Source: Gemmobacter aquatilis
GTDB taxonomy: Bacteria > Pseudomonadota > Alphaproteobacteria > Rhodobacterales > Rhodobacteraceae
Length of the DNA stretch: 64,000 bases
Reading direction: 5' to 3'
Assembly: GCF_900110025.1 (NCBI RefSeq)
Contig: NZ_FOCE01000008.1
Coordinates: 62,001 to 126,000 of the forward strand
The notes under the pieces were generated by a model. The model was not told the DNA's origin and made no database searches. It saw nothing but the letters and a program-made list of their open reading frames with translations. A program made the translations under genes and the position numbers. Below, piece after piece: positions 38,947 to 57,559 of this stretch; the first letter of the stretch is position 1, and the number at the start of each line of letters is the position of its first letter.

Positions 38947-38950
38947 CGGG

Positions 38951-39886
38951 TCAGGTCTTTCTGTAACGGTAGCGGCGTGCCACCGGATCATGCGCGCGGT
39001 TCAGCACGACACCCAGCAGCGGCACGCGGTCTTCGAACAGGCGTTCGCAGGCGCGGATGTCGTCGGCGGTGGTGCGGGTGGCATCGGCGACCAGCAGCAC
39101 GGCATCGACGCGCGGCAGCATCGAGATCACATCGTCATTGCCCAAGGCATGCGGCAGATCCATCAGGATCACCGCCGGGTCCAGATCGGTTTGCAGGCGG
39201 CGCAGGGTTTCGTCGAGCCTTGGGTTCAGCAGGGTTTCGGCGGCATCCGCGCAGGGCTCACCGTTCAGGGCAAGGGCGAGGTTCGGGCCGAAGCGGCGCA
39301 GATGGGTTTCCATCAGCTCGCCCCCGGTGAGGTAGTCGCGCAGCGATCCGGCCTCGATCCCCAGCGTGTCGGCAAGATCGGGGTGGCGCAGTTCCAGGTC
39401 GATCAGCACGGAGCGGCAACTGGGCAGGCGGGCCAGCGCGAAGGCGAGGTTGGCCGCGACAAGGCTTTTGCCGCAACCATGGGTGGGCGAGGTGATGGCG
39501 ATGCGGCGCCAGCCCCGTTCGGCCATGGCCTGCAGCATCCGGGTGCGCAGGATGTCGAATTGCGCGGTAACGGCGTTTTGTGCCGCATTCAGGAACAGAC
39601 CGTTTCCGGCGAGGTTTTCGCGGTTCAGCATCACCCGGCCCAGCGATTCCCATGCCCGGTCGGGGTTGGGGGTCAGCAGGGCGGGGGCCGAGAAGGGCGT
39701 GATGGTGGCCGGGGGGCCGATGATACGCTTGGGCGTTTCGGCGCGCGGATGGAACAGCCAGACCCCGTTCTGGCGGTTGGCGTTCGGGTCGCCCAGTCGT
39801 TCTTTGAATTCGTCATCAGACAGCATGGGAGACCCCATATCTTCGCTTTCGGAGGACTCGGGCACCAACATCGTGTGTCGCGTCAT
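38951..39886 (-). CDS. BY-kinase-like ATPase, CpsD/CapB type
   Basis: About 311 aa. Walker A SPTHGCGKSLVAANLAFALA, Walker A' SVLIDLELRHPD and Walker B VILMDLPHAL place it with bacterial tyrosine kinases that pair with Wzz. Only two tyrosines lie at the C-terminus (RRYRYRKT), fewer than the usual cluster, and the second Asp of A' is Glu. Start uncertain; ATGs at 39886, 39871 and two further downstream are all in frame. The long upstream frame overlaps the divergent GT2 and is rejected. Confidence 0.82.
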   Translation of the reverse strand: MTRHTMLVPESSESEDMGSPMLSDDEFKERLGDPNANRQNGVWLFHPRAETPKRIIGPPATITPFSAPALLTPNPDRAWESLGRVMLNRENLAGNGLFLNAAQNAVTAQFDILRTRMLQAMAERGWRRIAITSPTHGCGKSLVAANLAFALARLPSCRSVLIDLELRHPDLADTLGIEAGSLRDYLTGGELMETHLRRFGPNLALALNGEPCADAAETLLNPRLDETLRRLQTDLDPAVILMDLPHALGNDDVISMLPRVDAVLLVADATRTTADDIRACERLFEDRVPLLGVVLNRAHDPVARRYRYRKT

Positions 39887-39953: not shown

Positions 39954-40135
39954 AAGCCACTATCGGGATCTGATCTGCGCGGCATCGCAGGATGCGCACG
40001 GTGTTCAGGATTCGCCCGGCCCCCGCCCAGCCTTTTCCAACTAACAGATTTCGCATGAAAATGGAAGGGCGGGGGGAGTGGTTGCGGCGTGACAAGGCCG
40101 CTAGGATGAGGGCGAATCCGGGGCAGGAGGGGCGT

Positions 40136-41098
40136 GTGACCGAAGCGGCGAACGGGCGGATCGACGCGGTGGTCATCGGCCGCAACGAAGGGGCGCGGTT
40201 GCTGGTCTGCATCGCGTCGTTGCGGGGGCAGGTGCGGCGCGTGGTTTATGTCGATAGCGGTTCGACCGATGGCAGTGTGGCGGCGGCGGCGGCGCTGGGG
40301 GCCGAGGTGGTGGCGCTGGATCTGGCGGTGCCGTTCACCGCAGCGCGGGCGCGCAATGCCGGGCTGGACCGGCTGGCCACCGATCCACCCGATCTGGTGC
40401 AACTGGTGGATGGCGATTGCGAGGTGCAACCGGCATGGGTGGCCGAGGCGGCGGGATTTCTGGCAGCACATCCCGAGGTGGTGGTGGTCTGCGGGCGGCG
40501 GCGCGAGCGCTATCCCGAAGCCTCGGTCTATAACCGGCTGTGTGATCGGGAATGGGATACGCCGGTGGGCGCGGCAGCGGCCTGTGGCGGCGATGCGCTG
40601 ATGCGCTATGCCGCCGTGCGGGCGGTGGGCGGCTATGACCCGACGCTGATCGCGGGCGAGGAGCCGGATCTCTGTCTGCGGCTGCGGCGCGCGGGGGGCA
40701 AGATCTGGCGGCTGGAGGCCGAGATGACGCTGCACGATGCCGCCATGCGGCGCTTTGGCCAGTGGTGGCAGCGCACGCGGCGGGCGGGCCATGCCTTTGC
40801 CGAGGGGGCGCATCGCCATGGCGCGGGGCCAGAGCGGCATTGGGTGCGGGAAACCCGGCGGGCGCTGCTCTGGGGGGCGGGGGTGCCACTGGCGGCGCTG
40901 ATTGCCGGGGCGGTGCATCCGGCGGGGCTGGGGCTGCTGCTGGTCTGGCCCGCGCAGGTGCTGCGGCTGGCACCGCGTCTGGGGCTGGAGGCGGCGTTCT
41001 TTACCGTGCTGGGCAAGCTGCCCGAGGCGCAGGGGGGGATCGGCTATCATCTGGCGCGGCTGCGCGGGCAGCGGCGCGGCTTGATCGAATACAAGTGA
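40136..41098 (+). CDS. GT2 glycosyltransferase with C-terminal membrane segments
   Basis: 320 aa GT-A enzyme: nucleotide-sugar motif VVYVDSGSTDGSVAAA, metal-binding DGDCEVQPAWV, acceptor region GGYDPTLIAGEEPDLCLRL (ED motif), then QWWQRTRRAGHAF. Two hydrophobic segments follow (about 245-290). The GTG at 40136 has AGGAGG at ideal distance; earlier in-frame starts lack a ribosome site. Part of exopolysaccharide repeat-unit assembly. Confidence 0.88.
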   Translation: MTEAANGRIDAVVIGRNEGARLLVCIASLRGQVRRVVYVDSGSTDGSVAAAAALGAEVVALDLAVPFTAARARNAGLDRLATDPPDLVQLVDGDCEVQPAWVAEAAGFLAAHPEVVVVCGRRRERYPEASVYNRLCDREWDTPVGAAAACGGDALMRYAAVRAVGGYDPTLIAGEEPDLCLRLRRAGGKIWRLEAEMTLHDAAMRRFGQWWQRTRRAGHAFAEGAHRHGAGPERHWVRETRRALLWGAGVPLAALIAGAVHPAGLGLLLVWPAQVLRLAPRLGLEAAFFTVLGKLPEAQGGIGYHLARLRGQRRGLIEYK

Positions 41099-41114: not shown

Positions 41115-41873
41115 TCAGCCGCGTTGCGCCAGGGCGCGCAGCGCCTCGCCCGGCAGAAGCTTCAGGCAGGCCCAATAGCGCGGCACCAGACGGCGCGGGC
41201 TGGACAGCATCCGCCAGACCCATTCCATCGCGATGCGCTGCACCCAGTCCGGCGCGCGGTTCTGCGTGCCGGCCAGAAAATCCAAGCCCGCCCCGATCGA
41301 GGCAAAGCCGACATGCGGGGCAAGGTGGCGGCCGCGCGCGGCAAAGATTTCCTGCTTGGGGGCGCCCAGCGCGATCAGGCAGAGGCCGATGTCCGACGCC
41401 TCCATCAGCCGCAGAAAACGCGCGGCTTCTTCCCCTTCGGGGTCGAAGCCCATGGGCGGGGCGATCTGCAGCGCGATGTCCAGCCCCGGCAAGCGGCTGC
41501 GCAGCCGTTCTGCCGCCCCTTCCAGCGCCGCTTCGGTGGCGCCGAACAGGGCGACCCTGACCCCGGCCTGCGCCGCCAGCCGCGCCAGCGGCAGCACCAT
41601 TTCAGATCCGGGCACAAGGCCCACCGGCTGTCCGGCCAGACGCGACAGCCAGACGATGGGATTGCCATCCGCCACCACCAGATCCTGCGCCGCATAGGCG
41701 CGCAGGAAGGTAGGGCTGGAATGTAGCTTTACCAGATGGTCCAGATTGATCGTGGCCAGTGCGAAGCCCTGCCGATCTTGCAGCCGTACCCGCACCTCGG
41801 CCAGCAGGGCGGCGGCATGGGGCACGTTGACGGAAATCGTCGTGTCGTGAAAACGGAACTGCACGGCGGACAC
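41115..41873 (-). CDS. WecG/TagA/CpsF-family glycosyltransferase
   Basis: About 252 aa GT26. Motifs ATINLDHLVKLHSSPTF, VVADGNPIVWL, VALFGATEAALEGAAERL, CLIALGAPKQEIFAARGRH and ASIGAGLDFLAGTQNRAPDW are characteristic (Asp in the NxDH and GAPKQE regions). Such enzymes add ManNAcA, ManNAc or glucose to a lipid-linked sugar. The start is unclear: GTG at 41873 fits the family; GTG at 41960 would add 29 basic residues. Confidence 0.87.
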   Translation of the reverse strand: MSAVQFRFHDTTISVNVPHAAALLAEVRVRLQDRQGFALATINLDHLVKLHSSPTFLRAYAAQDLVVADGNPIVWLSRLAGQPVGLVPGSEMVLPLARLAAQAGVRVALFGATEAALEGAAERLRSRLPGLDIALQIAPPMGFDPEGEEAARFLRLMEASDIGLCLIALGAPKQEIFAARGRHLAPHVGFASIGAGLDFLAGTQNRAPDWVQRIAMEWVWRMLSSPRRLVPRYWACLKLLPGEALRALAQRG

Positions 41874-42036
41874 CTTACTGTTTAAGGCCTGCTGCGTAAC
41901 ACGAATTGCCGGGCAAATCAGCAAGCGCCGCCGTTTCACCCGTGACGGCGCGGTGGACACTCTGTTTCCAATCGGCGGGGTGGGTCAAGCGCAGATCGCG
42001 TTGGCCGACTCGGGCCCAAGGCGTTAGCGGTGGGGC

Positions 42037-42936
42037 ATGTCAGCGCAGGCCCGTCAGCATCGCCAGTCCATCGACCTTGCGCGCACGCTGGCGGCGTTCG
42101 GGGTGGTGGCGGTGCATATCCATGCTTCGGTCAATGATTGGTTCGGGCATGTCGCGCTGGCGCTGTTTCTGGTGCTGTCGGCCTTTCTGACGGCGCGCGC
42201 GGCAGATCGCAATGGCGGGCGGCCCGACTGGCCGGTGCGGGTGCGGCGCATCCTGCTGCCCTGGGTGTTCTGGTCGGCCGCTTATTGGCTGCTCAACGCC
42301 CTCACCGCCGAAGGGGCGAGCCTCGACGTGTTGCCGCGCGAGCCGCTGTCGTTGCTGGTCGGGGCGTCGATCCATCTGTGGTTTCTGCCTTTTGTGCTGC
42401 TGGCGGGGTTGGTGGTGCGGCCCGTGCTGGCCTTTACCCGGACGGTGCCGCGTCTGGCGCTGGCCGCGCTGGGGCTGGGGCTGGTGGGGGTGCCGCTGTT
42501 CTGGGTGCATACGGTTTTTCCCTTTGCGCCGGAGCCGCTGCCGCAATGGGCCTATGCCGTGCCGCCCTTCCTGTGCGGCGTGTTGCTGGTGCCCGCCCAC
42601 CGGATGCAGCGGATTGTGTTGCCGCTGGCCGCACTGGGGGGGCTGAACCTCGTGGCGCTGGTGATGTCGCATGGGGCACCCTGGGCCTGGACGACCCTTG
42701 CCGGGGCGCTGGCCTTCGAGACATTCTGGAACCTGCCGGTGGAACATCCGGTGTTGCCGGTGCTGGGCCGATCCTGTTTCGGGGTCTATCTGCTGCACCC
42801 GTTCTTCATGCTGGTGGGCTACAAGCTGTTCGGGACCGGGGTGCCATGGCCGCTGTTTTCGCTGCTGGTCTTTGCGCTTTCGGCCTTGACGGCCTTGGGG
42901 TTGCAGCGCCTGCCACTGATCCGGGCCGTGGTCTGA
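42037..42936 (+). CDS. Acyltransferase-3 family membrane protein
   Basis: 299 aa with about ten hydrophobic helices. N-terminal SIDLARTLAAFGVVAVHIHA is the Acyl_transf_3 signature with the catalytic His; a second family feature is LPVLGRSCFGVYLLHPFFML near the end. It would O-acetylate or otherwise acylate a glycan unit. First gene of a plus-strand run with the Wzy-like gene. Confidence 0.87.
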   Translation: MSAQARQHRQSIDLARTLAAFGVVAVHIHASVNDWFGHVALALFLVLSAFLTARAADRNGGRPDWPVRVRRILLPWVFWSAAYWLLNALTAEGASLDVLPREPLSLLVGASIHLWFLPFVLLAGLVVRPVLAFTRTVPRLALAALGLGLVGVPLFWVHTVFPFAPEPLPQWAYAVPPFLCGVLLVPAHRMQRIVLPLAALGGLNLVALVMSHGAPWAWTTLAGALAFETFWNLPVEHPVLPVLGRSCFGVYLLHPFFMLVGYKLFGTGVPWPLFSLLVFALSALTALGLQRLPLIRAVV

Positions 42937-42945: not shown

Positions 42946-44394
42946 GTGTGTTATGACTATGATCGCGCGTGCCGCGCAAGGAGTGTCCCGCTGATCTCTG
43001 CCAACCCCCTCGCATGGTTCATGCTGGCGATCTGGCCGGTGGTCGTGATCGTGCTGTTTCAGCGCCTGCCGCCGGACAGGGCGCTGATCTGGACCATTCT
43101 GGGCGCCTATCTGGTGCTGCCGCCGGTCATCGCGCTGAATTTGCCGGTCGTTCCGGATCTGGGCAAGAATTCCATCCCGGCCTTGATGGCGCTGGCGATG
43201 GTGCTGTTTGCGCGGCACGAGAAGATCTCGTTCCTGCCGGACAGCGCGGTGGGCCGGGCGCTGATCGCGGTATTCGTGCTGTCGCCCTTTGCCACGGTGC
43301 TGACCAATGGCGAAGCGGTGCAGGCGGGGCCGACGCAGCTTCAGGGCATGGCGATCTATGACAGTGTGGCGGCCGTGGCCAATCAGGCGATTGCCGTGCT
43401 GCCCTATTTCCTTGCCCGCCGCTATCTGGGCACGGATGAGGCGATGCGCAACATGCTGCGGGCGCTGGTGGCTGGCGGGCTGGCCTATTCGCTGCCGATG
43501 CTGATCGAGCTGCGCATGTCGCCGCAGATGAACGTCTGGGTTTACGGCTTCATGCAGCATGATTTCACGCAGACGATCCGCTTTGGTGGCTACCGTCCGA
43601 TGGTGTTTCTGCCGCACGGGTTGTGGCTGGCGTTTTTCGTGCTGATGACCTCGGTTTCCGCGCTGCTGCTGTTGCGCGAGGCGCCGGTGCAGGAGCGGGG
43701 GAAGCGGCTGATGATCTGGCTGTACCTGACGGCGATGCTGGTGCTGGCCAAAAGCGCCGGGCCGCTGGTGTACGGGGTCGGGTTGTCACTGCTGATCCTG
43801 CTGGCGCCGCGCCGGATGCAGGTGCTGGTGGCGGCGGTGCTGGCGGTGATGGTCATCACCTATCCGCTGCTGCGCGGGCTGCATCTGGTGCCGCTGGATG
43901 CGATCCTGAACCTTGCCGGAAGCGCCTCGGCGGAACGGGCGGATTCGCTGCAGTTCCGCATCGAGAACGAAGAGGCGCTGCTGGCCCATGCAAGCCTGAA
44001 GCCCTGGTTCGGCTGGGGCGGCTATGGGCGCAATCTGCTGTATGATCCGGTGACGGGCGAGATGGCCTCGGTGTCGGATGGCGGCTGGATCATCGTGCTG
44101 GGGATCTATGGCTGGCTAGGCTATATCGTGCAGTTTGGCCTGCTGATCCTGCCGCTGCTGCTGCTGGCAGGGCAGGCGATGCGGCGCGGGGTGACGGTTG
44201 CGGCGCCGGTGGCGGGGGTGGCGTTGCTGCTGGCGGCCAATCTGGTGGATCTGTTGCCCAATGCGACGCTGATCCCCTTCACCTGGCTGATGGCCGGGGC
44301 GGTGCTGGGGCGGGCCGAGGCAATGGCGCGCGAACGGGCCGGCACGAGCCGGACTGCGAGGTCTGGTATTCCCCGAACGCGGACGATTCTATGA
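42946..44394 (+). CDS. O-antigen ligase/polymerase-like (Wzy/WaaL) membrane protein
   Basis: About 482 aa, eleven to twelve hydrophobic segments, with the large periplasmic loop and the ligase/polymerase-type region RIENEEALLAHASLKPWFGW followed by GGYGRNLLYDPVTGE. It most likely polymerises exopolysaccharide repeat units. Start unclear: the GTG at 42946 has CAGGGGC upstream, but a perfect AAGGAG lies seven bases before an in-frame CTG at 42991, which would remove 15 polar residues. Confidence 0.83.
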   Translation: MCYDYDRACRARSVPLISANPLAWFMLAIWPVVVIVLFQRLPPDRALIWTILGAYLVLPPVIALNLPVVPDLGKNSIPALMALAMVLFARHEKISFLPDSAVGRALIAVFVLSPFATVLTNGEAVQAGPTQLQGMAIYDSVAAVANQAIAVLPYFLARRYLGTDEAMRNMLRALVAGGLAYSLPMLIELRMSPQMNVWVYGFMQHDFTQTIRFGGYRPMVFLPHGLWLAFFVLMTSVSALLLLREAPVQERGKRLMIWLYLTAMLVLAKSAGPLVYGVGLSLLILLAPRRMQVLVAAVLAVMVITYPLLRGLHLVPLDAILNLAGSASAERADSLQFRIENEEALLAHASLKPWFGWGGYGRNLLYDPVTGEMASVSDGGWIIVLGIYGWLGYIVQFGLLILPLLLLAGQAMRRGVTVAAPVAGVALLLAANLVDLLPNATLIPFTWLMAGAVLGRAEAMARERAGTSRTARSGIPRTRTIL

Positions 44395-44952: not shown

Positions 44953-47900
44953 GTGACCATGGCTGATCAGACCCTGTTGTCGGACCCCGTGTCCGAGACC
45001 GATATTGCCATTGTCGGCATGGCGGCGCATCTACCCGGAGCCCCTTCGATTGTTGACTATTGGGAAAACCTGCGCGCCGGGATCGAAAGCATCCGCCACC
45101 TGACCGAGGCGGAACTGCTGGCCAATGGCGAAAGCCCCGCGAAGATGCGGCACCCCAATTATGTGCCCGCCGCGGCCCCGCTGGACAAGTTTGCCGAGTT
45201 CGATGCGGAGTTCTTCGGTTTCAGCCCGAAAGAGGCGGCGATCCTTGACCCGCAGCACCGCCAGTTTCTGGAGGTGGCTTGGGAGGCGCTGGAGAACGCG
45301 GCACATGTGCCCGAACGCTTCAACGGGTCCATCGGGGTTTATGCCGGCTGCGGCATGGGCAGCTATTTCTATTTCAACCTGTGTTCCAACCCCGATCTGG
45401 TGGAAAACACCGGCATGTTCTTGCTGCGGCACACCGGCAACGACAAGGATTTCCTGTCCACCCGGGTAAGCCATATCTTCGACCTCAAGGGGCCGAGCAT
45501 CAATATCCAGACCGCCTGTTCCACATCATTGGTGGCGGTGCATTTCGCGTCGCAGGCGCTGCTGAACGGCGAATGTGATATGGCGCTGGCGGGCGGGGTG
45601 ACCATCGAGTTGCCGCAGGGCCGGGGCTATGTGTTCAACGAGGGCGAGATCCTGTCGCCCGACGGGCATTGCCATGCCTTCGATCACCGCGCGCAGGGCA
45701 CGGTGTTCGGGTCTGGCGCGGGCTGTGTGGTGCTGCGCCGCGCGGTGGATGCGATCCGCGACGGCGATCACATCTGGGCGATCATCAAGGGCAGCGCCAT
45801 CAACAATGACGGCGCGGCGAAGGCGGGCTATCTGGCGCCTTCGGTCGATGGGCAGGCGCGCTGCATCGCCGAGGCGCAGGCAATTGCCGGGGTGCCTTCG
45901 GACACGGTGGATTATGTGGAATGTCACGGCACCGGCACCTTTCTGGGCGACCCGATCGAGGTGGCGGCGCTGACCGCAGGCTTCCGCGAAAGCGCCGACA
46001 GCGTGGGGACATGCAGGATCGGTTCGGTGAAAACCAATATCGGGCATCTGGATACGGCGGCGGGGGTGGCGAGCCTGATCAAGGTGGCGCTGCAACTGCA
46101 TCACCGGGAAATGGCGCCCTCGCTGGGATACGAGGCGCCGAACCCGGCGATTGATTTTGAAACCTCGCCCTTCAAGGTGAATGACCGGCTGACTGCGTGG
46201 GAGGCGAAGGCCCACCCGCGCCGCGCCGGGGTGAACAGTCTCGGCGTCGGGGGCACAAATGCACACGCCGTACTGCAGGAGGCGCCCGTTCGCGGCGCCT
46301 CCGACGAAAGTGACTGGCCGTTTCAGCCGCTGGTGATTTCGGCCAGATCGAAAGGCGCGCTGGACGATGCGGCGCGCAATCTTGCGGCGCATCTGCGGGC
46401 GCATCCGGAACAGAAGCTGGCCGATGTGGCCTGGACGCTGAAAGAGGGCCGCCGGGCGTTTGAAAAGCGCCGGGTGCTGGTGGCCGGCAGTCCCGACGAG
46501 GCGGCGGACCTGCTGGAGGGCAAGGACGCGCGGCGCGTGTTCAGCCATGACCATCTGGGCGACAACCCCGAGGTGGTGTTCATGTTCCCCGGTGGCGGCG
46601 CGCAATATGCGGGCATGGCGCGCGGGCTGTATGACACCGAGCCGGAGTTCCGCGACTGGATGGACAAGGGTCTGGCGATCCTGCAGCCCAAGCTGGATTA
46701 CGACATCCGCGCGCTGTGGCTGCCCGAACCGGGGCAAGAGGCGGCGGCGGATGCCCGGTTGAAGCGGCCTTCGGTGCAACTGCCGCTGATCCTGATCACC
46801 GAATATGCGCTGGCGAAGCTGTATCAAAGCTGGGGCGTGACGCCTGCGGCGCTGATCGGGCACAGCATGGGGGAAAATACCGCTGCCTGTCTGGCCGGGG
46901 TGATGAGCTTTGAGGATTGCATCGGGCTGGTGCATCTGCGCGGGCAATTGTTCGATACCGTGCCGCCGGGCGGGATGCTGTCTGTGCCGCTGGCCGAGGC
47001 CGATCTGCGCCCGCGCCTGACCGGCGATCTGGATATGGCCAGCGTGAACGCGCCGGGGCTGTGTGTGGTGTCCGGTTCCGATGCGGCACTGGCGGCGCTG
47101 GCGGCAGGGTTGGCGGCGGAAGGGGTGGAGACGCAGCGCATCGCCATCGACATCGCGGCGCATAGCCGGATGCTGGAGCCTATCCTGGGGCGGTTTGGCG
47201 AATATCTGCGCGCGATCCGGCTGCACGCGCCGCAGATCCCGATCATTTCCAACCGCACGGGGTTGCCGCTGTCGGCTGATCTGGCGCGCAGCCCGGAATA
47301 TTGGGTGCAGCATCTGCGCAATACCGTGCTGTTCCAGCAGGGGCTGGCGCAACTGACCGCAACGCCGGGGCGTGTCTACATGGAAATGGGGCCGGGGCGG
47401 GCGCTGTCCTCGCTGGCGCAGGCCAATGGGGTTGCGGCGGGGCAGGTAATCCCGGCGCTGCGCCACCCGGAACAGAAGATCTCCGATGACCAATGGCATA
47501 TCGCCAGCATCGCCCGGCTTTGGGCTTGCGGTGTGGCGGTGGATTGGGAGCCGATCTGGGGCGGCGCGCGGCGCTTGCGGCTGCCGCTGCCGGGCTATGC
47601 CTTCCAGCGCAAACCCTATTTCATCGAACCGGGCAAGGCTGGGGTGGTGGAGGCCGAGGCGCTGCCGATGCGCCTTGCCGATGTGGCAGACTGGGGCTGG
47701 CAGCCGGTCTGGCGCCAGCACGCGGCGGCGGTGGAGTTTGATGAACCCGCCGAGGCGCCAAAGCATAGCTGGCTGGTGTTCGTTGATGAGGCGGGGCTGG
47801 GCGCGCAGGTCGTGGCGCAGTTGCGTGCGGCAGGGCAATCGGTGGTCACGGTGCGGGCGGGCGATGCCTATGCGCGCGATGGTGAAGGCGGGTTCATCCT

Positions 47901-50900
47901 GAACCCCGAACGCGGGCGCGAGGGCTATGACGCGTTGATCCGCGATCTGGTGGCGGCGGGCCGCGCGCCGGACCGGATCGCGCATTTCTGGCTGGTGACG
48001 GCGCGCGAAAGCTTCCGCCCGGGGTCCAGCTTCTTTCACCGCAATATCGAGCAGGGCTTTTATGCGCTGATGTTCCTGGGCCAGGCGATGGCCGAGGAAA
48101 ACCTGCCCCGGCCGATCCATCTGTCGGTGGTGACGACGGGGGCGGCGCAGCTGAAGGACGAGGGTCTGCCCTACCCGGAAAAGGCCGCGATTGCCGGGCC
48201 GGCCAAGGTGATGCCGCATGAGCTGCCGGGGGTGAGTTGCGCCACGCTGGACGTGCAGCTTCCCGCCGCGCCGAAGGGGCGCTGGGCCAAGGCCGACCCG
48301 CAGGCGATGGCGGTGCTGGCCGGGCAGGTGGTGGAGGATCTGCTGGCCGCGCCCTCCAGCCACGCGGCGCTGCGCCGGGGCGAAAAACGCTATGAACGGG
48401 CGTTGAAGCGGCTGGCGCTGCCCGAGGCGGCGATGGGCCTGCCGGAGGGTGCGCCGGTGCTGATCACCGGCGGGTTTGGTGGCATCGGGCTGACGCTGGC
48501 CGAAAAGCTGGCGGTGGAGGCGCGGGCCAAGATCGTGCTGATCGCCCGCAGCGCCCTGCCCGCGCGGGCGGATTGGCCGCAGCATCTGGCGCAGGGCGAT
48601 GCGGTGGCACGGCGGATTCTGGCGGTGCAGCGGCTGGAAAGTCTGGGCGCCGAGGTGCTGGTGGCGCGGGCCGACGTGTGCAACGCCGAAGAGATGCGCG
48701 CGGCGGTGGCCGAGGCCGAGGGGCGGTTTGGCCCGCTGCGCGCGGTGATCCATGCGGCGGGCGTGGTGGATGACGCGCCGCTGCTGGCCAAGACCCCGGC
48801 GCAGGTGGAAGGCGTCTTTGCGCCGAAACTGCACGGCACGCATGTGCTGGATGCGCTTTTCCCCGATGGGCGCCTTGATCTGCTGGTGCTGTTTTCCTCC
48901 ACCTCGACCGTCACGGGGCCGGTGGGGCAGGTGGATTATGTGGCGGCGAATGAATACCTCAACGCCTATGCGCAGGGGCGGCGGGGCGGCAAGACGCGGG
49001 TTCTGGCGCTGAACTGGGGCATCTGGGCCGATGTCGGCATGGCGGCCGAGGCACTGGCCGAACGCACCGGCGCCAGACCGCTGGCGCCGCGCGTGCCGGT
49101 GAAGCGCCCGCTGCTGGACGAGGCCGGGTATGACCGGGCGGGCAACCGCATCTTCGCCACGCGGCTGACGACCGAGCGCTGGATATTGGACGGGCACCGC
49201 ACCAAGGGTGGCACGGCGCTGATCCCCGGCACCGGCTATCTGGAGATGGCCGCCGAGGTGGCGCGGGAAGAGGGCTTTGGTGCCTTCGAGTTGCGCGACC
49301 TGACCTTCTTCCGCGCGCTGGACGTGGCCGATGGCGCCAGCCGCGAGATGCGGGTCAAACTGCTGCGGTCCGATGAGGGCTTTGGCTTCGAGGTGCGGTC
49401 TGGCGTGGACCATCGCGGGCGCACCGGCTTTGCGCTGAATGCGCAGGGGCGGCTGATGCCGTTGCGCGCCAAGCCGGGGCAGATTGATCCGGCGGCGATT
49501 GCGGCGCGCTGTGGCGTGGCGCGCGAGGATATTCGCGGCTTGCGCTCGCCGCAGGAGGAGCATCTGAACTTCGGGCCGCGCTGGCGGGTGCTGCACCGGA
49601 TGGCGCTGGGGCAGGGCGAGGGCATCGCCTCGCTGACCCTGCCGCTGGCGGCGCAGCCCGATCTGGCGCAGGGCTGGCTGCTGCATCCGGCGCTGATGGA
49701 TCTGGCGACGGGTTGGGCGATGGAGCTGATTTCCGGCTATCAGCCGACGCATCTGTGGGTGCCGGTCAGCTATGCCCGGTTGCGCGCCCATGCGCCGCTG
49801 CCGGCGCGGGTGATCAGTTGGGTGCGCAATGCGGCGGTGAACCGGGGCGAAGGGCCGGTGGCGGTGTTCGACGTGACGCTGGCCACCGAGACCGGCGAAG
49901 TGCTGGTGGAGATTGAAGGCTTCACGATCCGCAAGCTGGAGGGGGCCTTTGCGACGAAAGCGCCCGAGTTGCGCGATCTGGAATTTGACGATGCGCAGGC
50001 GCAGAAAGCCGCCTCGCCGCAAGAGGAACGGCTGATCCACAACCTTGGCCAAGGCATCCGCGCCGCCGAGGGGGCCGATGCCTTTGCCCGCGCGCTGGCC
50101 ACCGGGCAGGCGCAGGTGATCGTGTCGTCGCTGGATCTGCCGGCGCTGGTCCGTCAGGCCGATGCGGTGGAGGCCGAGCGGCCCGAGGGGCAAAGTTTCG
50201 CGCGTCCCGATCTCGACAGCGCCTATATCGAGCCGCGCAATGACATCGAACGCACGCTGACCGGCTTCTGGCAGGAACTGCTGGGGGTGGGGCAGGTCGG
50301 GGTGGAGGATGACTTCTTCGCGCTGGGCGGCCATAGCCTGATCGCGGTGCGGCTGTTTTCCATGGTGCGCAAGGCGTTCCGGGTGGATTTCCCGATCTCG
50401 GTCCTGTTCGAAGCACCGACGATTGCCGCCTGTGCGGCGTTGATCGAGGAACGCATCGGGCCGCAGGATGGCACTGCGCCGAAGGCAGAGGCCCCAACGC
50501 GCCGCTTCACCCATCTGGTGGCTATGCACGAAGGGGCAGGGGGGCCGAAGCAGCCGTTCTTCCTTGTGGCGGGCATGTTCGGCAATGTGCTGAACCTGCG
50601 GCATCTGGCGCAGCTTCTGGGCGGGGACCGGCCGTTCTACGGGATGCAGGCACGCGGGCTTTACGGCGATGCCGAACCGCACCGCACCTTGCCCGAGGCC
50701 GCGCGCGATTACATCGCCGAGTTGCGGCAGGTGCAGCCGCAGGGGCCCTATCTGCTGGGCGGTTTTTCGGGCGGCGGGTTGACCGCCTGGGAAATGGCGC
50801 GGCAGTTGGAGGCGGCGGGGGAACAGGTTTCGCTGCTGGTGCTGCTGGATACGCCCTTGCCGATGCGCCCGCCGCTGTCGCGTCTGGACAAGGCGCTGAT

Positions 50901-51354
50901 CAAGGCGGCCGAGATGAAGGCGCGCGGGCCGGGCTTCGTGGCCGATTGGGCCAGGCGCCGCGTGGCATGGGAGATCGAGAAGCGCCGCCCGAAACAGGCG
51001 ACCGACACCGCGCATCAGTTCCACAATACCGAGATCGAGGCCGCGTTCCGCGCCGCTTTGCCGATCTATGCCTTGCCGCTGCGCAAGGGGCCGACGGCGC
51101 TGTTCCGCCCGCCGCTGGATCGGCGCTGGGCGGTGTCGAACGGGCAATGGGTGTCTGCCGCGCGGGAATATGTGTTCCCCGACAATGACCTGACCCGCTT
51201 TGCCCCGGCCTTGCAGGTGGTCGAGGTGCCGGGCGACCATGACAGCATGGTGCTGGAGCCGAATGTGCGGGTTCTGGCGGCGCGGTTGCGCGAGGCCATT
51301 GCCGGTGCAGAGGAAAAGCCGCCAGCCCCGACGCTGCGCGAGGCGGCGGAGTGA
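44953..51354 (+). CDS. Type I polyketide synthase, one module: KS-AT-KR-DH-ACP-TE
   Basis: 2133 aa. Ketosynthase (about 15-430) with Cys189 (TACSTSL), His325 (ECHGTGT) and His365 (NIGHLD). Acyltransferase (about 520-810) with Ser638 in GHSMGEN. Ketoreductase (structural half from about 910, GGFGGIG at 1173, Tyr1329 and Asn1333). Dehydratase (about 1385-1680) with His1415 (DGHRTKGG) and Asp1583 (HPALMD). ACP Ser1795 (GGHSL). Thioesterase Ser1939 (GFSGGG). All catalytic residues are present, so it should extend an acyl group once, reduce and dehydrate it, and release the product. The KR precedes the DH, the reverse of textbook order. GTG at 44953 is favoured by GAGG; ATG at 44959 is possible. 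Overlaps the GT2 gene. Confidence 0.95.
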   Translation: MTMADQTLLSDPVSETDIAIVGMAAHLPGAPSIVDYWENLRAGIESIRHLTEAELLANGESPAKMRHPNYVPAAAPLDKFAEFDAEFFGFSPKEAAILDPQHRQFLEVAWEALENAAHVPERFNGSIGVYAGCGMGSYFYFNLCSNPDLVENTGMFLLRHTGNDKDFLSTRVSHIFDLKGPSINIQTACSTSLVAVHFASQALLNGECDMALAGGVTIELPQGRGYVFNEGEILSPDGHCHAFDHRAQGTVFGSGAGCVVLRRAVDAIRDGDHIWAIIKGSAINNDGAAKAGYLAPSVDGQARCIAEAQAIAGVPSDTVDYVECHGTGTFLGDPIEVAALTAGFRESADSVGTCRIGSVKTNIGHLDTAAGVASLIKVALQLHHREMAPSLGYEAPNPAIDFETSPFKVNDRLTAWEAKAHPRRAGVNSLGVGGTNAHAVLQEAPVRGASDESDWPFQPLVISARSKGALDDAARNLAAHLRAHPEQKLADVAWTLKEGRRAFEKRRVLVAGSPDEAADLLEGKDARRVFSHDHLGDNPEVVFMFPGGGAQYAGMARGLYDTEPEFRDWMDKGLAILQPKLDYDIRALWLPEPGQEAAADARLKRPSVQLPLILITEYALAKLYQSWGVTPAALIGHSMGENTAACLAGVMSFEDCIGLVHLRGQLFDTVPPGGMLSVPLAEADLRPRLTGDLDMASVNAPGLCVVSGSDAALAALAAGLAAEGVETQRIAIDIAAHSRMLEPILGRFGEYLRAIRLHAPQIPIISNRTGLPLSADLARSPEYWVQHLRNTVLFQQGLAQLTATPGRVYMEMGPGRALSSLAQANGVAAGQVIPALRHPEQKISDDQWHIASIARLWACGVAVDWEPIWGGARRLRLPLPGYAFQRKPYFIEPGKAGVVEAEALPMRLADVADWGWQPVWRQHAAAVEFDEPAEAPKHSWLVFVDEAGLGAQVVAQLRAAGQSVVTVRAGDAYARDGEGGFILNPERGREGYDALIRDLVAAGRAPDRIAHFWLVTARESFRPGSSFFHRNIEQGFYALMFLGQAMAEENLPRPIHLSVVTTGAAQLKDEGLPYPEKAAIAGPAKVMPHELPGVSCATLDVQLPAAPKGRWAKADPQAMAVLAGQVVEDLLAAPSSHAALRRGEKRYERALKRLALPEAAMGLPEGAPVLITGGFGGIGLTLAEKLAVEARAKIVLIARSALPARADWPQHLAQGDAVARRILAVQRLESLGAEVLVARADVCNAEEMRAAVAEAEGRFGPLRAVIHAAGVVDDAPLLAKTPAQVEGVFAPKLHGTHVLDALFPDGRLDLLVLFSSTSTVTGPVGQVDYVAANEYLNAYAQGRRGGKTRVLALNWGIWADVGMAAEALAERTGARPLAPRVPVKRPLLDEAGYDRAGNRIFATRLTTERWILDGHRTKGGTALIPGTGYLEMAAEVAREEGFGAFELRDLTFFRALDVADGASREMRVKLLRSDEGFGFEVRSGVDHRGRTGFALNAQGRLMPLRAKPGQIDPAAIAARCGVAREDIRGLRSPQEEHLNFGPRWRVLHRMALGQGEGIASLTLPLAAQPDLAQGWLLHPALMDLATGWAMELISGYQPTHLWVPVSYARLRAHAPLPARVISWVRNAAVNRGEGPVAVFDVTLATETGEVLVEIEGFTIRKLEGAFATKAPELRDLEFDDAQAQKAASPQEERLIHNLGQGIRAAEGADAFARALATGQAQVIVSSLDLPALVRQADAVEAERPEGQSFARPDLDSAYIEPRNDIERTLTGFWQELLGVGQVGVEDDFFALGGHSLIAVRLFSMVRKAFRVDFPISVLFEAPTIAACAALIEERIGPQDGTAPKAEAPTRRFTHLVAMHEGAGGPKQPFFLVAGMFGNVLNLRHLAQLLGGDRPFYGMQARGLYGDAEPHRTLPEAARDYIAELRQVQPQGPYLLGGFSGGGLTAWEMARQLEAAGEQVSLLVLLDTPLPMRPPLSRLDKALIKAAEMKARGPGFVADWARRRVAWEIEKRRPKQATDTAHQFHNTEIEAAFRAALPIYALPLRKGPTALFRPPLDRRWAVSNGQWVSAAREYVFPDNDLTRFAPALQVVEVPGDHDSMVLEPNVRVLAARLREAIAGAEEKPPAPTLREAAE

Positions 51355-52358
51355 TGGCGCAGGTTCTGACCGTCATCCTCAACTGGCGCACCGCGCCGAT
51401 GACCCTGCAAGCGACCGAGGCGGCGTTGCGGGCGATGCAGGGGATGGCGGGCGCGATCACCATCGTGGACAACGACTCGGGCGATGGCAGTTTCGAGGCG
51501 CTGGTCGCCGAGGTTGCGGCGCGCGGTTGGGATCGCGGGGCGGTGCCGGTGCGGGTGCTGCAATCGGGCTGGAACGGCGGTTTTGGCGCGGGCAACAATG
51601 TCGGCATCCGTGCCGGATTGCCGGGGGGCGCGCGGCCCGATTACGTCTATATCCTCAATTCCGATGCCTTTCCGGCACCTGGCGCCATTCGTGCGCTGCT
51701 GGACCATCTGCAGGCGCATCCCGACACCGGCTTTGCGGGCAGCTATATCCATGGCGAGGATGGGGTGGCCCATCGCACCGCCTTTCGCTTTCCCTCCATC
51801 GCGTCGGAACTGGAGGGGGCGGCGCGCACCGGCCCGGTGTCGCGGTTGCTGCGCGCGCATATCGTGGCGCTGCCGATCCCGCAGACCACCACGCGGGTGG
51901 ATTGGCTGGCGGGTGCCAGCCTGATGATGCGGCAGGATGTGCTGGACCGGATCGGATTGTTTGACGAAACCTTCTTTCTGTATTTCGAGGAAACCGATCT
52001 GTGCCTGCGTGCCGCGCGGGCGGGCTTTCCCACCGATTACGTCCGCGAATCGGAGGTGATGCATATCGGTTCGGTGTCCACCGGCATGAAGACATGGCGC
52101 CGTATTCCTGCCTTCTGGCTGGACAGCCGCAGCCATTATTTCACCAAGAATTACGGGCATCTCTATGCCGCAGCTGCCACGCTGGCCCATGTGGCCGGGG
52201 GAGTCTTGTGGCGGGTGCGGCGTTTCGTCCAGCGGCGGGATCACCTTGATCCACCGCATTTCCTGCGCGATCTGATCGTGCATTCTGTGACGCGGGCGGG
52301 GCGGCAACAGCGGGCGGGGGCACCCTCGCCCAAGGATATGGCCCGCCCCGCGGCATAG
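51354..52358 (+). CDS. GT2 glycosyltransferase within PKS-NRPS operon
   Basis: 334 aa. GT2 motifs: VILNWRTAPMTLQATEA, IVDNDSGDGSFEALV, NGGFGAGNNVGIRAG, YVYILNSDAFPAPGAIRA, and DETFFLYFEETDLCLRAARA. The group includes rhamnosyl- and related transferases of surface glycans. The ATG overlaps the PKS stop by 1 nt (TGATG), so the two are translated together. One hydrophobic stretch near the C-terminus (LYAAAATLAHVAGGVLW). It may glycosylate the PKS-NRPS product or a lipid carrier. Confidence 0.9.
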   Translation: MAQVLTVILNWRTAPMTLQATEAALRAMQGMAGAITIVDNDSGDGSFEALVAEVAARGWDRGAVPVRVLQSGWNGGFGAGNNVGIRAGLPGGARPDYVYILNSDAFPAPGAIRALLDHLQAHPDTGFAGSYIHGEDGVAHRTAFRFPSIASELEGAARTGPVSRLLRAHIVALPIPQTTTRVDWLAGASLMMRQDVLDRIGLFDETFFLYFEETDLCLRAARAGFPTDYVRESEVMHIGSVSTGMKTWRRIPAFWLDSRSHYFTKNYGHLYAAAATLAHVAGGVLWRVRRFVQRRDHLDPPHFLRDLIVHSVTRAGRQQRAGAPSPKDMARPAA

Positions 52359-52395
52359 GGGCATCGCCGCCCTGCCGGGGCGGAAGGAGTGTAGG

Positions 52396-55300
52396 ATGAA
52401 CCCGTTTTCCTGTTACCTGATCGGCAATGAAAGCCTGACCCGCGAATGTGGCGAGATGCTGCTGGCGCGCGGCCATGCCATCGCGGCGCTGATCACGCGC
52501 AACCCGGATGTCCGGGCCTGGGGGCAGGCAAAGGGCCTGAGCGTGCTGGCGCAGGATCGGGGATGGGACGCGGCGCTGCCGGGGCAGGTGGATTGGTTGC
52601 TGTCGATCGCCAACCTGTCGCTGGTGCCCGAAGCCGCGCTGGCTTTGGCGCGGCAGGGCGGGGTGAACTTCCATGACGGGCCGTTGCCGCGCCATGCCGG
52701 GCTGAATGCGCCGGTCTGGGCCATTCTGGCGCAGGAACCGCAGCATGGCATCACCTGGCACATGATCACCGCAGGGGTGGACGAGGGCGAAATCCTTGAT
52801 CAGCGGCTGTTCCCGGTGCTGCCGAGTGATACCGCGCTGACGCTGAACACCCGGTGTTTTGAAGCGGCGATTGACAGTTTCCCGGCCTTGATCGAGGCGC
52901 TGGCCCTGGGCGCGCCGCACCGCCGGGCACAGGATTTCACGCAACGCACGGTTCATACGCGGGCGGATCGGCCTGCGGCGGCGGGGCGGCTGGATTTCAC
53001 CCGGACGGCGGCAGAGGTCGCGGCGCTGGTGCGCGCGCTGGATCATGGCACCTATTGGAACCCGCTGACCTGCGCCAAACTGTGGGATGGCGGGCGCTAT
53101 GTCGTGGTGGGCGGGGCGGAGGTTGTGGCCGGTGCAGGCGTGCCGGGGCAGGTGCTGGCCGCCACAGAAGATGACGTGACGGTGGCTTGCGGCGCGGGGG
53201 CGGTGCGGCTGACGCGGCTGACCTGCCAGAAGGGGTTTCCGGTTTCGGGCCTGTCGCTGCCCAACCCGCTGGCCTCGGCCAGCCCGGCAGAGGCTGCGGC
53301 GCTGACGGCGGCGCTGGCGCGGGTGGCGCCGCAGGAACCGGCGCAGCGCAAGGCCTTGCTGGCGCTGGACCCGGCAGAGGTTGCGGGCGCTGCGGCGGCC
53401 ACTGCCCCGGCCTTCTGGCAAAGCGTGCCGGTGGCGCTGCCCTCGCTGGCGCTGGGGGCCTTGGCGGCGGTGCGGCTGTCGGGCAAGCCGGTGGCCGATC
53501 TGGCCTTTGGCGCGGCTCATGCGGCCGAAGGCATCCTGTCGGACTGGGTGCCGCTGCGCGTGGCGGCAGAAGGCGCGCTGCCCGAGGCGCTGGCCCGGGT
53601 GACGACGGCGCTGGACGCTGCTGCCGCGCATCCGGGGTTTGCGCTGGATCTGCTGGCGCGGGATCGCAAGCTGTTCGGCCTGCAACCGCCCGCCTTCGGG
53701 CTGGGCCTTGCGCCGGTGCCCGGCACGGTGGTCACGCTGGCCCCCGATGCGCTGCACTACGATGCCAGCCGGTTGACCGCCGCGCAGGCCGAGGCGATGG
53801 CGGCCCGCATCGCCGCCTTTGCCGCAGCGGCGCAGGGGGATGCGCGGGTGGAAACCCTGCCGGTTCTGACGCCCGCGGAACTGGACGAGGTGCTGTATCA
53901 GCACAACCGCACCGCCACCCCCTATGACGCCAGCCTGTGCGTGCATCAGGCGTTCGAGGCGCAGGTGGCGCGCAGCCCCGATGCGGTGGCCGTGGTGTTC
54001 GAGGGCGAAAGCCTGACCTATGCGCAGCTCAATGCCCGCGCCAACCGGGCGGCGCAGGTGCTGATCGGCATGGGGGTGCGGCCCGGCACGCTGGTCGGCC
54101 TGCATCTGCGCCGGTCGCTGAACCTGCTGATCGGGGCGCTGGCGATCCAGAAGGCGGGCGGGGCTTATGTGCCGATGGACCCGGCCTATCCCGCCGACCG
54201 CACGGCGCTGTATATCGAAGACAGCGCCTGCCCGGTGATCGTGACGCAGGCGGCGCTGGAACCGGCGCTGCCCGCGCATCAGGCGCAGGTGCTGTGCCTT
54301 GATACCGACGGGCGGCTGGGGCTGGCGGATGCGGCGAACCCGGCTTCGGGCGTTACCTCTGCCGATCTGGCCTATATGATCTACACCTCCGGCTCTACCG
54401 GGCGGCCCAAGGGGGTGATGGTCGAACATCGCAACGTCGCCAACTTCTTTGCCGGGATGGATGGGCGGATCGACCATGCCTCGGGCTCTGTCTGGCTGGC
54501 CGTCACCTCGCTGTCCTTCGACATTTCGGTGCTGGAGCTGTTCTGGACGCTGGCGCGCGGGTTCAAGCTGGTGCTAACCTCGGATGAAAACCGGGCGCTG
54601 GTGTCGAATGGCACCATCGCCTCGGCGCAGGGGATGGAGTTTTCGCTGTATTACTGGGGCAATGACGATGGCGTCGGCCCGAAGAAATACGAGTTGCTGC
54701 TGAACGGTGCCCGCTTTGCCGATGAGCATGGGTTCTGCGCCGTCTGGACACCGGAACGCCATTTCCACGCCTTTGGCGGCCCCTATCCGAACCCGAGCGT
54801 GACCGGCGCGGCGGTGGCGGCGGTGACGAAGAATATCGGCGTGCGGGCCGGGTCTGTCGTGCTGCCGTTGCACCATCCGGCGCGGGTGGCCGAGGATTGG
54901 GCGGTGATCGACAACCTGACCAACGGGCGGGCCGGGCTGGCGATTGCCAGCGGCTGGCAGCCCGATGATTTCGTGCTGCGGCCCGAGAATACCCCGCCGA
55001 ACAACCGCGCCGCGATGTTCGACGGCATCGCCCAGTTGCGCCGCCTGTGGCGGGGCGAGGCGGTGGAGTTTCCGACGAAAACCGGCACATTCGGCGTGGT
55101 GACGCAACCGCGCCCGGTGTCGCAGGATCTGCCGATCTGGGTGACCACCGCCGGCAACCCCGCCACATGGCGCGAGGCGGGCGAGATTGGCGCGAATGTG
55201 CTGACCCACCTTCTGGGCCAGAGCATTGACGAGGTGGCGGGCAAGATCGCCATCTATCACGACGCGCTGCGCAAGGCGGGGCATGATCCGGCGCAGTTCA

Positions 55301-56943
55301 AGGTGACGCTGATGCTGCACACCTATGTCTGCCGCGACCGCGAACAGGCCCGGCGCGTGGCGGAAAAGCCGATGAAGGATTACCTCGCCGCCGCCGTGGG
55401 GTTGGTGAAGCAGTATGCCTGGGCCTTCCCGGCGTTCAAGAAACCGCAGGGCATTGAAAACCCGATGGATATCGACCTGCGCACCCTGTCGGCGGAAGAA
55501 AACGAGGCGATCCTCGATTTCGCCTTCCAGCGGTATTTCGAGGATTCCGGCCTGTTCGGCACGGTGGAAGACGCGCTGGCGCGGGTGGAAAGCCTGAAGC
55601 GCATCGGGGTGACCGAAGTCGCCTGCCTGATCGACTATGGTATCGCCCCCGAAGCGGTGATGGAGGGGCTTTATCCGCTGGCCGAGGTGCTGCGCCGCGC
55701 CAATGCCGGGGCGGGGCCTGCCGCCGACGATTACTCGATCGCGGCGCAGATCATCCGCCATAAGGTGACGCATCTGCAATGCACGCCCTCGATGGCGCGG
55801 ATGATCATGCTGAATGACGAGGCGCAGATGGCGCTGGCCGGGGTGAAAACCCTGATGCTGGGCGGCGAGGCGCTGCCGGGGGCCTTTGTCAGCGATCTGC
55901 GCCGGGTGACGCAGGCGAAGATCGAAAACATGTATGGGCCGACCGAAACCACGATCTGGTCCACCACGGAAACCGCGCAGGGTGGCGAAGGGGTGGTGAA
56001 TATCGGCACGCCCATCGCCAACACGCAGCTTTATGTGCTGGACGACCGGCAACAGCCGGTGCCGCCCGGCACGGCGGGCGAGTTGTGGATCGGCGGCGAT
56101 GGCGTGACGCGCGGCTATTGGCAGCGGCCTGATCTGACGGCGGAACGCTTTCTGCCCGACCCGTTCATCCGCGAAAATGCCTGCGTCTGGGGCGCGCGGA
56201 TGTATCGGACCGGCGATCTGGTGCGGCTGCGCGCCGATGGCAAGCTCGATTACCTCGGGCGGGCGGATTATCAGGTGAAGCTGCGCGGTTACCGGATCGA
56301 GCTGGGCGAGATCGAAAGCACGCTGGAGGCGCAGCCGGGGGTGTCTCAGGCCGTGGTTCTGGCGCGCGAGGATCAGCCGGGCGATCTGCGGCTGGTGGCC
56401 TATGTCACCGGCACGGCCAGTGCCGAGACGCTGAAACCCGCGCTGGCGGCGCTGTTGCCCGATCATATGATCCCGGCACATTTTGTGCGGCTGGACAGTT
56501 TCCCGCTGACCCCCAACCGCAAGGTGGACCGCAAGGCGCTGCCCGCGCCGCAGGCACAGGTGGAACAGGCCGCCCATGTCGCGCCCGAAGCCGGGTTGGA
56601 GGCGCAGATCGCCGCGATCTGGCAAAAGGTGCTGGGCGTGCCCAAGGTGGGGGCGAAGGACAATTTCTTTGCGCTGGGGGGCCATTCGCTGCTGGCGGTG
56701 CAGGCGCATCGTGAATTGCGCGACGGGCTGGGGCTGACCAAGCTGTCGATCACCGACATCTTCCGCTTTCCCACGCTGTCGGCGCTGGCCGCGCATCTGG
56801 AGGGGGCACCGAAGCCTGCGACGCCTGCGGCGGCCCCGGCCAATACCGCAGCACAGCCGCAAGGGCTGGCTGATCGGGCCGAGGCGCGGGCGGATGCCAT
56901 GGCGCGGCGGCGTGCCTTGCGCGGTGGCCGGGTGGATGGCTGA
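52396..56943 (+). CDS. NRPS: formyltransferase, adenylation domain with luciferase-like monooxygenase insert, PCP
   Basis: 1515 aa. Residues 1-290: formyltransferase fold with Asn91, His93 and Asp129 (NFHDGPLPRHAG, AGVDEGEIL). Residues 290-505: remnant like the end of a condensation domain, without an HHxxxDG motif. Adenylation part 1 from about 510 (YTSGSTGRPKG at 663-673, FDISVLELF). At about 740-1110 a luciferase-like FMN monooxygenase is inserted (VWTPERHFHAFGGPYPNPSV, AGSVVLPLHHPARVAEDW), the MupA/Atu3671-type family. Adenylation part 2 about 1112-1400 (MYGPTETTIW, YRTGDLVRLR, Lys1376 in NRKVDRKALP). PCP Ser1431. No condensation or TE domain, so it looks like a loading module. GGAAGGAG precedes the ATG. 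Confidence 0.93.
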   Translation: MNPFSCYLIGNESLTRECGEMLLARGHAIAALITRNPDVRAWGQAKGLSVLAQDRGWDAALPGQVDWLLSIANLSLVPEAALALARQGGVNFHDGPLPRHAGLNAPVWAILAQEPQHGITWHMITAGVDEGEILDQRLFPVLPSDTALTLNTRCFEAAIDSFPALIEALALGAPHRRAQDFTQRTVHTRADRPAAAGRLDFTRTAAEVAALVRALDHGTYWNPLTCAKLWDGGRYVVVGGAEVVAGAGVPGQVLAATEDDVTVACGAGAVRLTRLTCQKGFPVSGLSLPNPLASASPAEAAALTAALARVAPQEPAQRKALLALDPAEVAGAAAATAPAFWQSVPVALPSLALGALAAVRLSGKPVADLAFGAAHAAEGILSDWVPLRVAAEGALPEALARVTTALDAAAAHPGFALDLLARDRKLFGLQPPAFGLGLAPVPGTVVTLAPDALHYDASRLTAAQAEAMAARIAAFAAAAQGDARVETLPVLTPAELDEVLYQHNRTATPYDASLCVHQAFEAQVARSPDAVAVVFEGESLTYAQLNARANRAAQVLIGMGVRPGTLVGLHLRRSLNLLIGALAIQKAGGAYVPMDPAYPADRTALYIEDSACPVIVTQAALEPALPAHQAQVLCLDTDGRLGLADAANPASGVTSADLAYMIYTSGSTGRPKGVMVEHRNVANFFAGMDGRIDHASGSVWLAVTSLSFDISVLELFWTLARGFKLVLTSDENRALVSNGTIASAQGMEFSLYYWGNDDGVGPKKYELLLNGARFADEHGFCAVWTPERHFHAFGGPYPNPSVTGAAVAAVTKNIGVRAGSVVLPLHHPARVAEDWAVIDNLTNGRAGLAIASGWQPDDFVLRPENTPPNNRAAMFDGIAQLRRLWRGEAVEFPTKTGTFGVVTQPRPVSQDLPIWVTTAGNPATWREAGEIGANVLTHLLGQSIDEVAGKIAIYHDALRKAGHDPAQFKVTLMLHTYVCRDREQARRVAEKPMKDYLAAAVGLVKQYAWAFPAFKKPQGIENPMDIDLRTLSAEENEAILDFAFQRYFEDSGLFGTVEDALARVESLKRIGVTEVACLIDYGIAPEAVMEGLYPLAEVLRRANAGAGPAADDYSIAAQIIRHKVTHLQCTPSMARMIMLNDEAQMALAGVKTLMLGGEALPGAFVSDLRRVTQAKIENMYGPTETTIWSTTETAQGGEGVVNIGTPIANTQLYVLDDRQQPVPPGTAGELWIGGDGVTRGYWQRPDLTAERFLPDPFIRENACVWGARMYRTGDLVRLRADGKLDYLGRADYQVKLRGYRIELGEIESTLEAQPGVSQAVVLAREDQPGDLRLVAYVTGTASAETLKPALAALLPDHMIPAHFVRLDSFPLTPNRKVDRKALPAPQAQVEQAAHVAPEAGLEAQIAAIWQKVLGVPKVGAKDNFFALGGHSLLAVQAHRELRDGLGLTKLSITDIFRFPTLSALAAHLEGAPKPATPAAAPANTAAQPQGLADRAEARADAMARRRALRGGRVDG

Positions 56944-57559
56944 TCTGACGGCCTTGCAGGCGGCGGCGCGCGGGCTGTTGCCGCCCGGCTGCGGCGTGGG
57001 CGTGGCCGATCCGGGGATGCCGCGCCCGGGCTTTCCGGGCGAGGAGATTGCCGCCGTCGCCACGCGTCTGGCCGAGTTTCGCGCCGGGCGTGTGGCGGCA
57101 CGGCTGGCCATGGCCGAACTGGGCTTGCCGCCAGTGCCGGTGCCGATGCAGCGCGACCGCGCGCCGCTGTGGCCGATGGGGCTGTGCGGCTCGATCAGCC
57201 ATAGCGGCACGCTCTGCCTTGCGGCGGTGGCGCGGCACCCGTTGCGCGGGTTGGGGTTGGATCTGGAGCCTGCCACGCCGCTGGACGATGACCTGCGCGA
57301 CATCGTGTTGCGCCCGGAAGAACGCAGTGTGGCGCCCGATCTGGCCAAGCTGATCTTTTGCGCCAAGGAAGCGGCCTACAAGGCGCAATATCCGATCTCG
57401 CGCCGCCTGTTCGATTTTCAGGCGCTGGCGGTGCAGATCGAGGGCGGGCAGTTCACCGCCACCTTTGCCGAGGATATTCCGCCCTTCCCGCGCGGCACGC
57501 AGTTGCAGGGCCGCCATGCCCAGGTGGACGGGCATTTCCTCTGCACTGTCACGCTCTGA
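56936..57559 (+). CDS. 4'-phosphopantetheinyl transferase, EntD/Sfp type
   Basis: 207 aa. Motifs LCGSISHSG, LGLDLEPATPL (Mg-binding Asp and Glu) and FCAKEAAYKAQYP define the EntD-like family. It converts apo-ACP/PCP to the holo form with CoA, as needed by the PKS and NRPS upstream. The ATG at 56936 overlaps the NRPS end by 8 nt. It closes the operon. Confidence 0.92.
   Translation: MADLTALQAAARGLLPPGCGVGVADPGMPRPGFPGEEIAAVATRLAEFRAGRVAARLAMAELGLPPVPVPMQRDRAPLWPMGLCGSISHSGTLCLAAVARHPLRGLGLDLEPATPLDDDLRDIVLRPEERSVAPDLAKLIFCAKEAAYKAQYPISRRLFDFQALAVQIEGGQFTATFAEDIPPFPRGTQLQGRHAQVDGHFLCTVTL

Follow-up and report, generated by a model that had tools for sequence, protein, structure and literature searches.

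Glycine-activating adenylation (A) domains that carry an inserted monooxygenase are presumably of the MtaG/MelG type. All four known examples share the code DILQLGMIWK in an A-domain survey, and they are associated with terminal amide formation (PMC12283262). In conglobatin and oxazolomycin biosynthesis (CongA/OzmO), a formylating F-A(Gly)-PCP unit delivers its product to a PKS (PMC4504003). These systems have multimodular PKSs, give oxazole polyketides and lie outside polysaccharide loci, and the loading units are not known to carry a monooxygenase. Linear gramicidin synthetase LgrA also initiates by formylation on an F-A-PCP unit. For the one-module type I PKSs WcbR and RkpA, we know of no NRPS, formyltransferase or monooxygenase partner. 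Both are found inside polysaccharide loci (PMC3908369). In addition, Roseibaca domitiana has an orphan NRPS-like/T1PKS cluster, with an NRPS gene of 4527 nt and a PKS gene of 6333 nt located 992 nt apart (PMC10584327). Such hybrids occur in 18 of 37 related species, are orphan with very low similarity to known clusters, and form the commonest new cluster type of biotechnological interest in the group; an antibiotic or antitumour role was considered possible (PMC10584327).

The window analysed here, a 64,000-nt stretch of Gemmobacter aquatilis DNA, harbors at 44953-57559 a cassette of four genes, all on the plus strand, encoding a PKS, a family 2 glycosyltransferase (GT2), an NRPS and a 4'-phosphopantetheinyl transferase (PPTase) (Table 1). 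The cassette resembles CongA/OzmO in a formyltransferase-A(Gly)-PCP unit feeding a PKS (PMC4504003), and resembles WcbR and RkpA in having a one-module type I PKS among polysaccharide genes (PMC3908369), the latter likeness being one of architecture and context only. Its gene sizes match those of the R. domitiana cluster, in which the 992-nt space leaves room for a GT2 gene (PMC10584327). We propose that the four genes rather probably form an assembly line dedicated to one specific exopolysaccharide (EPS) of the Wzx/Wzy type, and would supply a substituent of this polymer.

Table 1. Genes of the cassette and of the EPS region upstream of it; positions refer to the window.
Feature	Position	Strand	Domains, matches and occurrence
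GT4 glycosyltransferase	33436..34692	-	PF13692, E 1e-35
Wzx flippase, cassette type	34713..36083	+	PF13440
Initiating sugar-phosphate transferase, ExoY/WbaP-like	36860..37582	+	PF02397, E 1.7e-59
Wzz chain-length determinant	37666..38991	-	PF02706
BY-kinase-like protein (polysaccharide tyrosine autokinase)	38951..39871	-	TIGR03018, E 4e-21, below cut-off
GT2 glycosyltransferase (second, upstream)	~39992..41098	+	PF00535; matched in 62/80 loci
WecG/TagA/CpsF glycosyltransferase	41115..41960	-	PF03808, E 9e-45
Acyltransferase-3 family protein	42037..42936	+	PF01757; matched in only 5/80 loci
Wzy-like polymerase / O-antigen ligase-like	42946..44394	+	PF04932, 25 bits, below Pfam cut-off; matched in 33/80 loci
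Type I PKS, 2133 aa	44953..51354	+	KS(16-393)-AT(542-814)-KR(1169-1360)-DH(1386-1664)-ACP(1768-1831)-TE(1870-); Pfam
GT2, family 2 glycosyltransferase, GT-A fold	51354..52358	+	Pfam; structure model
NRPS, 1515 aa	52396..56943	+	Formyltransferase, ~190-aa unassigned linker, A domain interrupted by FMN luciferase-like monooxygenase (749-1098), PCP; Pfam/NCBIfam
PPTase, Sfp-type	56936..57559	+	PF17837, PF01648

The PKS stop codon overlaps the GT2 start codon (ATG at 51354) by 1 nt in the sequence TGATG, and a gap of 37 nt separates the GT2 and NRPS genes. The best start of the PPTase gene is the ATG at 56936, resulting in an 8-nt overlap with the NRPS gene, while its longest open reading frame begins at 56894. 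These spacings agree with the original prediction, except that its figure of 8 nt represents an overlap and not a gap. The genes and domains that it had assigned to the cassette were confirmed with Pfam and NCBIfam, and the upstream genes were likewise confirmed. The closest relatives of the NRPS are Gemmobacter proteins of 80-85% identity.

The NRPS displays the features of an intact loading unit. Residues N91, H93 and D129 of the formyltransferase (PF00551/PF02911) are invariant in all 101 NRPS sequences compared, as are the core lysines of the A domain and the carrier serine of the PCP. The two halves of the A domain (520-733 and from ~1087) flank the inserted monooxygenase, which scores 473 bits with TIGR04020 (cut-off 244). 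A formylating, monooxygenase-bearing F-A-PCP loading unit, as had been predicted, is therefore supported. The specificity positions of the A domain, assigned by motif, read D-I-L-Q-(M/L/F/Y/A)-G-M-I-W-K over the 101 sequences, with nine of the ten positions invariant and one variable. This pattern, DILQ-x-GMIWK, is also that of the known monooxygenase-bearing Gly A domains, whose DILQLGMIWK differs only at the variable position (PMC12283262); the glycine code of DhbF is DILQVGLIWK (PMC4169593). Because of this agreement, glycine is the best predicted substrate and most likely the amino acid loaded.

The predicted glycine shifts the closest precedent for the start of the line. The original prediction had invoked linear gramicidin synthetase LgrA, which shares a formylating F-A-PCP start with the present line, uses a different amino acid and gives a weak formyltransferase match (25 bits). 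The F-A(Gly)-PCP units of conglobatin and oxazolomycin (PMC4504003) are the closer models. Compared with the known monooxygenase-bearing Gly A domains, which serve terminal amide formation (PMC12283262), the present unit is a formylating loading unit. It is not a terminal amide-releasing module, since it opens the assembly line, and the PKS and TE are encoded by a neighbouring gene. The unusual chemistry predicted from these domains is the combination of a termination-type monooxygenase insert with a formylating start unit. No condensation domain was found upstream of the A domain by Pfam (PF00668). A half condensation domain between the formyltransferase and the A domain, suggested by eye, was not supported by Pfam, and the linker gave no hhalign match against two C domains, which were weak templates. 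Monooxygenases inserted in Gly A domains have been associated with breakage of the glycine backbone (PMC12283262), and alpha-hydroxyglycine might accordingly collapse to a glyoxylyl starter for the PKS, giving a reactive 4-oxo C4 acyl product without nitrogen. This would render a formyltransferase with invariant N-H-D residues pointless, and we consider it highly improbable.

The catalytic residues of the PKS are invariant over 98 sequences, namely C-H-H of the KS, Ser of the AT, Ser/Tyr/Asn of the KR, His/Asp of the DH, Ser of the ACP and Ser/Asp/His of the TE. The DH is positioned after the KR, which is an unusual order. In addition, the second DH motif is D-xxx-G in all 98 sequences, whereas the usual motif is D-xxx-Q/H. 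A simple dehydration to a 2-enoate is less certain because of this motif. The original prediction of one extension followed by reduction, dehydration and release thus fits a one-module PKS adjoining a loading unit, but its 2-enoate is weakened. Among solved structures, 8xju/8xjz gave the best match to the PKS and a high match to the NRPS, and a literature search gave no paper on either entry.

The genes upstream of the cassette include the components of a Wzx/Wzy-dependent EPS locus, of which the Wzy-like and BY-kinase matches are below the curated cut-offs. The plus-strand reading frames at 33370-34716 and at 37648, and much of the one at 41103, were dismissed as antisense shadows, the first of the GT4 gene and the others of real minus-strand genes. 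A gene for an RTX-like protein with calcium-binding repeats (32223-33227, plus strand) separates the PNPase gene from the EPS locus. The acyltransferase-3 family protein (42037-42936) was rejected as a general attachment enzyme for its rarity (Table 1), and no acyltransferase fit to attach the product was conserved across the loci compared.

Homologs of the NRPS, full-length or partial, were found in 89 of 248 family genomes (E <= 1e-100). The cassette is present across about one third of the family genera sampled, and its arrangement is kept in dozens of genera, which excludes a chance arrangement. A class-wide sample yielded one NRPS match outside the family, and a plasmid collection added Ruegeria, Parasedimentitalea, Paracoccus, Aminobacter, Shinella and Rhizobium. 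The comparison of operon architecture across the family that the original prediction had suggested revealed the PKS gene adjoining the NRPS gene in 61 of 61 genomes checked, and EPS genes at the 80 named loci: at least one other EPS family within ~10 kb in 77 by clustering, and in the other three by tblastn. The order PKS-GT2-NRPS is kept in 76 of these 80 loci, and the PPTase gene lies within 3 kb of the NRPS gene in 70. In 35 of 62 loci, an initiating sugar transferase is located no more than 25 kb away, compared with ~3% expected at a random position; the remaining 27 have none within this distance.

Several individual loci deviate from the common pattern. The PKS is in pieces in one genome (G009, C3:516565-522688) and in two tblastn segments in another (G135, C8:87057-93473), and the NRPS match has single in-frame stops in G213, G044 and G138; these represent decay or sequencing errors. 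On a plasmid of Aliiroseovarius sp. M344 (L046:13465-27204), a 3-kaa NRPS/PKS takes the place of the usual PKS-GT2 after a paralogous NRPS whose annotation is MupA/Atu3671-type, with xrtD and a VPLPA-CTERM gene ~4 kb away. On a Paracoccus marcusii plasmid (L045:1-3043), a second adenylation-domain protein, possibly from another assembly-line gene of the same EPS locus, is encoded 8 kb upstream of the cassette PKS and adjoins a WecB/TagA/CpsF gene.

On its own, linkage might reflect shared regulation, for instance in biofilms, as would be the case if the cassette made a stand-alone antibiotic, signal or chelator whose free form the GT2 may glycosylate. Therefore, co-occurrence was tested genome by genome, in raw counts that ignore kinship. 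At a threshold of 380 bits, the cassette-type Wzx is present in 79 NRPS-positive genomes and in 0 of 159 NRPS-negative genomes; this cut was set after the scores had been seen, the best NRPS-negative match being 379 bits against 385 bits. Lowering the cut to 330 bits gave 80 NRPS-positive and three NRPS-negative genomes. In two genomes, both assembled in long contigs, the Wzx gene is far from the NRPS gene, by 1.49 Mb (G034) and 1.87 Mb (G055), and both proteins belong to the cassette-type Wzx clade. Similarly, a large protein termed F16, with an SGNH-like N-terminal domain (GHSL ... DxxH) and a C-terminal part without a Pfam match, was found in 79 of 89 NRPS-positive and 6 of 159 NRPS-negative genomes, again with kinship ignored. 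It occurs, for instance, at L165:16375-18915; the copy in the genome of the window is on a different contig (C10:675873-678374), unlinked to the cassette. A further SGNH-type protein, F15, membrane-anchored or lipoprotein-like, is encoded in 21 of 80 loci, usually directly after the PPTase gene. Its structure model (pLDDT 85) matched GDSL-type hydrolases weakly, with the GHSL and DxxH residues conserved. Extracytoplasmic ester chemistry would be compatible with an O-acyl substituent, a hint at most.

The tracking of the cassette by Wzx, GT2 and the SGNH-domain protein from genome to genome, partly without linkage, argues against a stand-alone metabolite, as does the presence of the NRPS-PKS pair in EPS loci of separate lineages with differing gene content; nor was a transporter or resistance gene seen inside the four-gene cassette. 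A free product would agree with the complete TE, with the two genomes G217 and G185, which keep PKS-NRPS without the GT2 and apart from EPS genes, and with the literature reading of the orphan NRPS-like/T1PKS clusters of this family (PMC10584327). We regard this explanation as unlikely, and a decoration of the polymer rather than a free antibiotic as the most likely product. In G217 and G185 (L081/L082, L175/L176), the pair shares a neighbour that appears by eye to be glutamine synthetase-like, near housekeeping genes.

The structure model of the cassette GT2 (pLDDT 88) gave GT-A matches, and GT2 orthologs of more than 50% identity were found in 81 genomes, all NRPS-positive. Related EPS gene sets without PKS-NRPS are present in genomes G137, G092, G080 and G174 and as second loci of G185 and G126, with the exception that G126 has a divergent PKS-NRPS copy near its second locus. 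These sister loci contain Wzx (40-46%), GT2 (32-35%), a Wzy-like protein, WecG or other glycosyltransferases, and often the exosortase XrtD. Because its homologs sit in such loci, the cassette GT2 is probably a glycosyltransferase of polysaccharide synthesis, which became coupled to the cassette. The original prediction had the product glycosylated or attached to a surface glycan; the link to a surface polysaccharide now extends beyond adjacency, whereas the GT2 as glycosylator of the product is weakened by these homologs.

In a tree of a subset of sequences, the cassette GT2s cluster together, separate from the sister GT2s, the sister Wzx proteins form an adjacent grade, and the Tateyamaria loci have a sister-type Wzx; in the full trees, sister Wzx and GT2 sequences were not all cleanly separated from the cassette types. 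Since related EPS loci without the cassette exist, the PKS-NRPS would most simply be an addition to an older EPS pathway. In the NRPS tree, a clade of Aminobacter, Shinella and Rhizobium stands beside the Rhodobacterales clade, with the distant alphaproteobacterium G528 outside. The NRPS-PKS pair of Aminobacter, Shinella and G528 lies in polysaccharide loci of differing gene content, and Rhizobium BG6 also has the cassette in a polysaccharide locus by tblastn clustering. The NRPS of G217, a genome in which the EPS context and the GT2 were lost, falls within the EPS-linked NRPSs of Rhodobacterales, with weak local support.

Domain architecture, intact active sites, the glycine-type code, gene order, EPS linkage and co-occurrence were all computed directly. 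From these we infer the formylation and hydroxylation steps, how many extensions occur, what the DH does, and where, when and by which enzyme the product is attached, and propose the following pathway. The PPTase would arm both carrier domains, and the A domain would load glycine onto the PCP. The formyltransferase would then cap the amine, and the inserted FMN monooxygenase would probably hydroxylate the alpha-carbon. The KS would accept the unit from the PCP for addition of one malonyl unit, to be processed by the KR and perhaps the DH. The TE would release a C4 N-formylamino acyl product, either as a free acid or onto a sugar. This acyl group would become a substituent of the lipid-linked repeat unit, with the dedicated GT2 helping in its assembly, and the matched Wzx would flip the decorated unit. 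Type I PKS genes are known in the capsule loci wcb and rkp (PMC3908369), and the PKS-NRPS might instead make a lipid or acyl anchor or primer of the polysaccharide, as thought for RkpA and WcbR. This is very unlikely for a chain begun on a formylated NRPS unit of the glycine type and built by a single module with no enoyl reductase and a TE at its end. For the favoured polymer decoration, a more specific version is possible, if doubtful: the NRPS-PKS would be the obligatory supplier of a widespread Rhodobacterales EPS whose repeat unit bears a C4 acyl group derived from N-formyl-alpha-hydroxyglycine, a masked electrophile possibly able to cross-link or anchor the matrix, served by its own matched flippase and an SGNH-domain enzyme.

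The original prediction had left open whether this architecture was already characterised. It had been detected before, as the orphan cluster of Roseibaca, with no polysaccharide link noted: the cluster was treated as bioactive, and the words polysaccharide and glycosyltransferase are absent from that paper (PMC10584327). No prior polysaccharide link for this cluster was found in the open-licence literature. If the decoration of a polysaccharide is true, it would change the mining of such clusters, add natural-product chemistry to bacterial glycans, and offer a direct test of the matching of a Wzx flippase to an unusual substituent.
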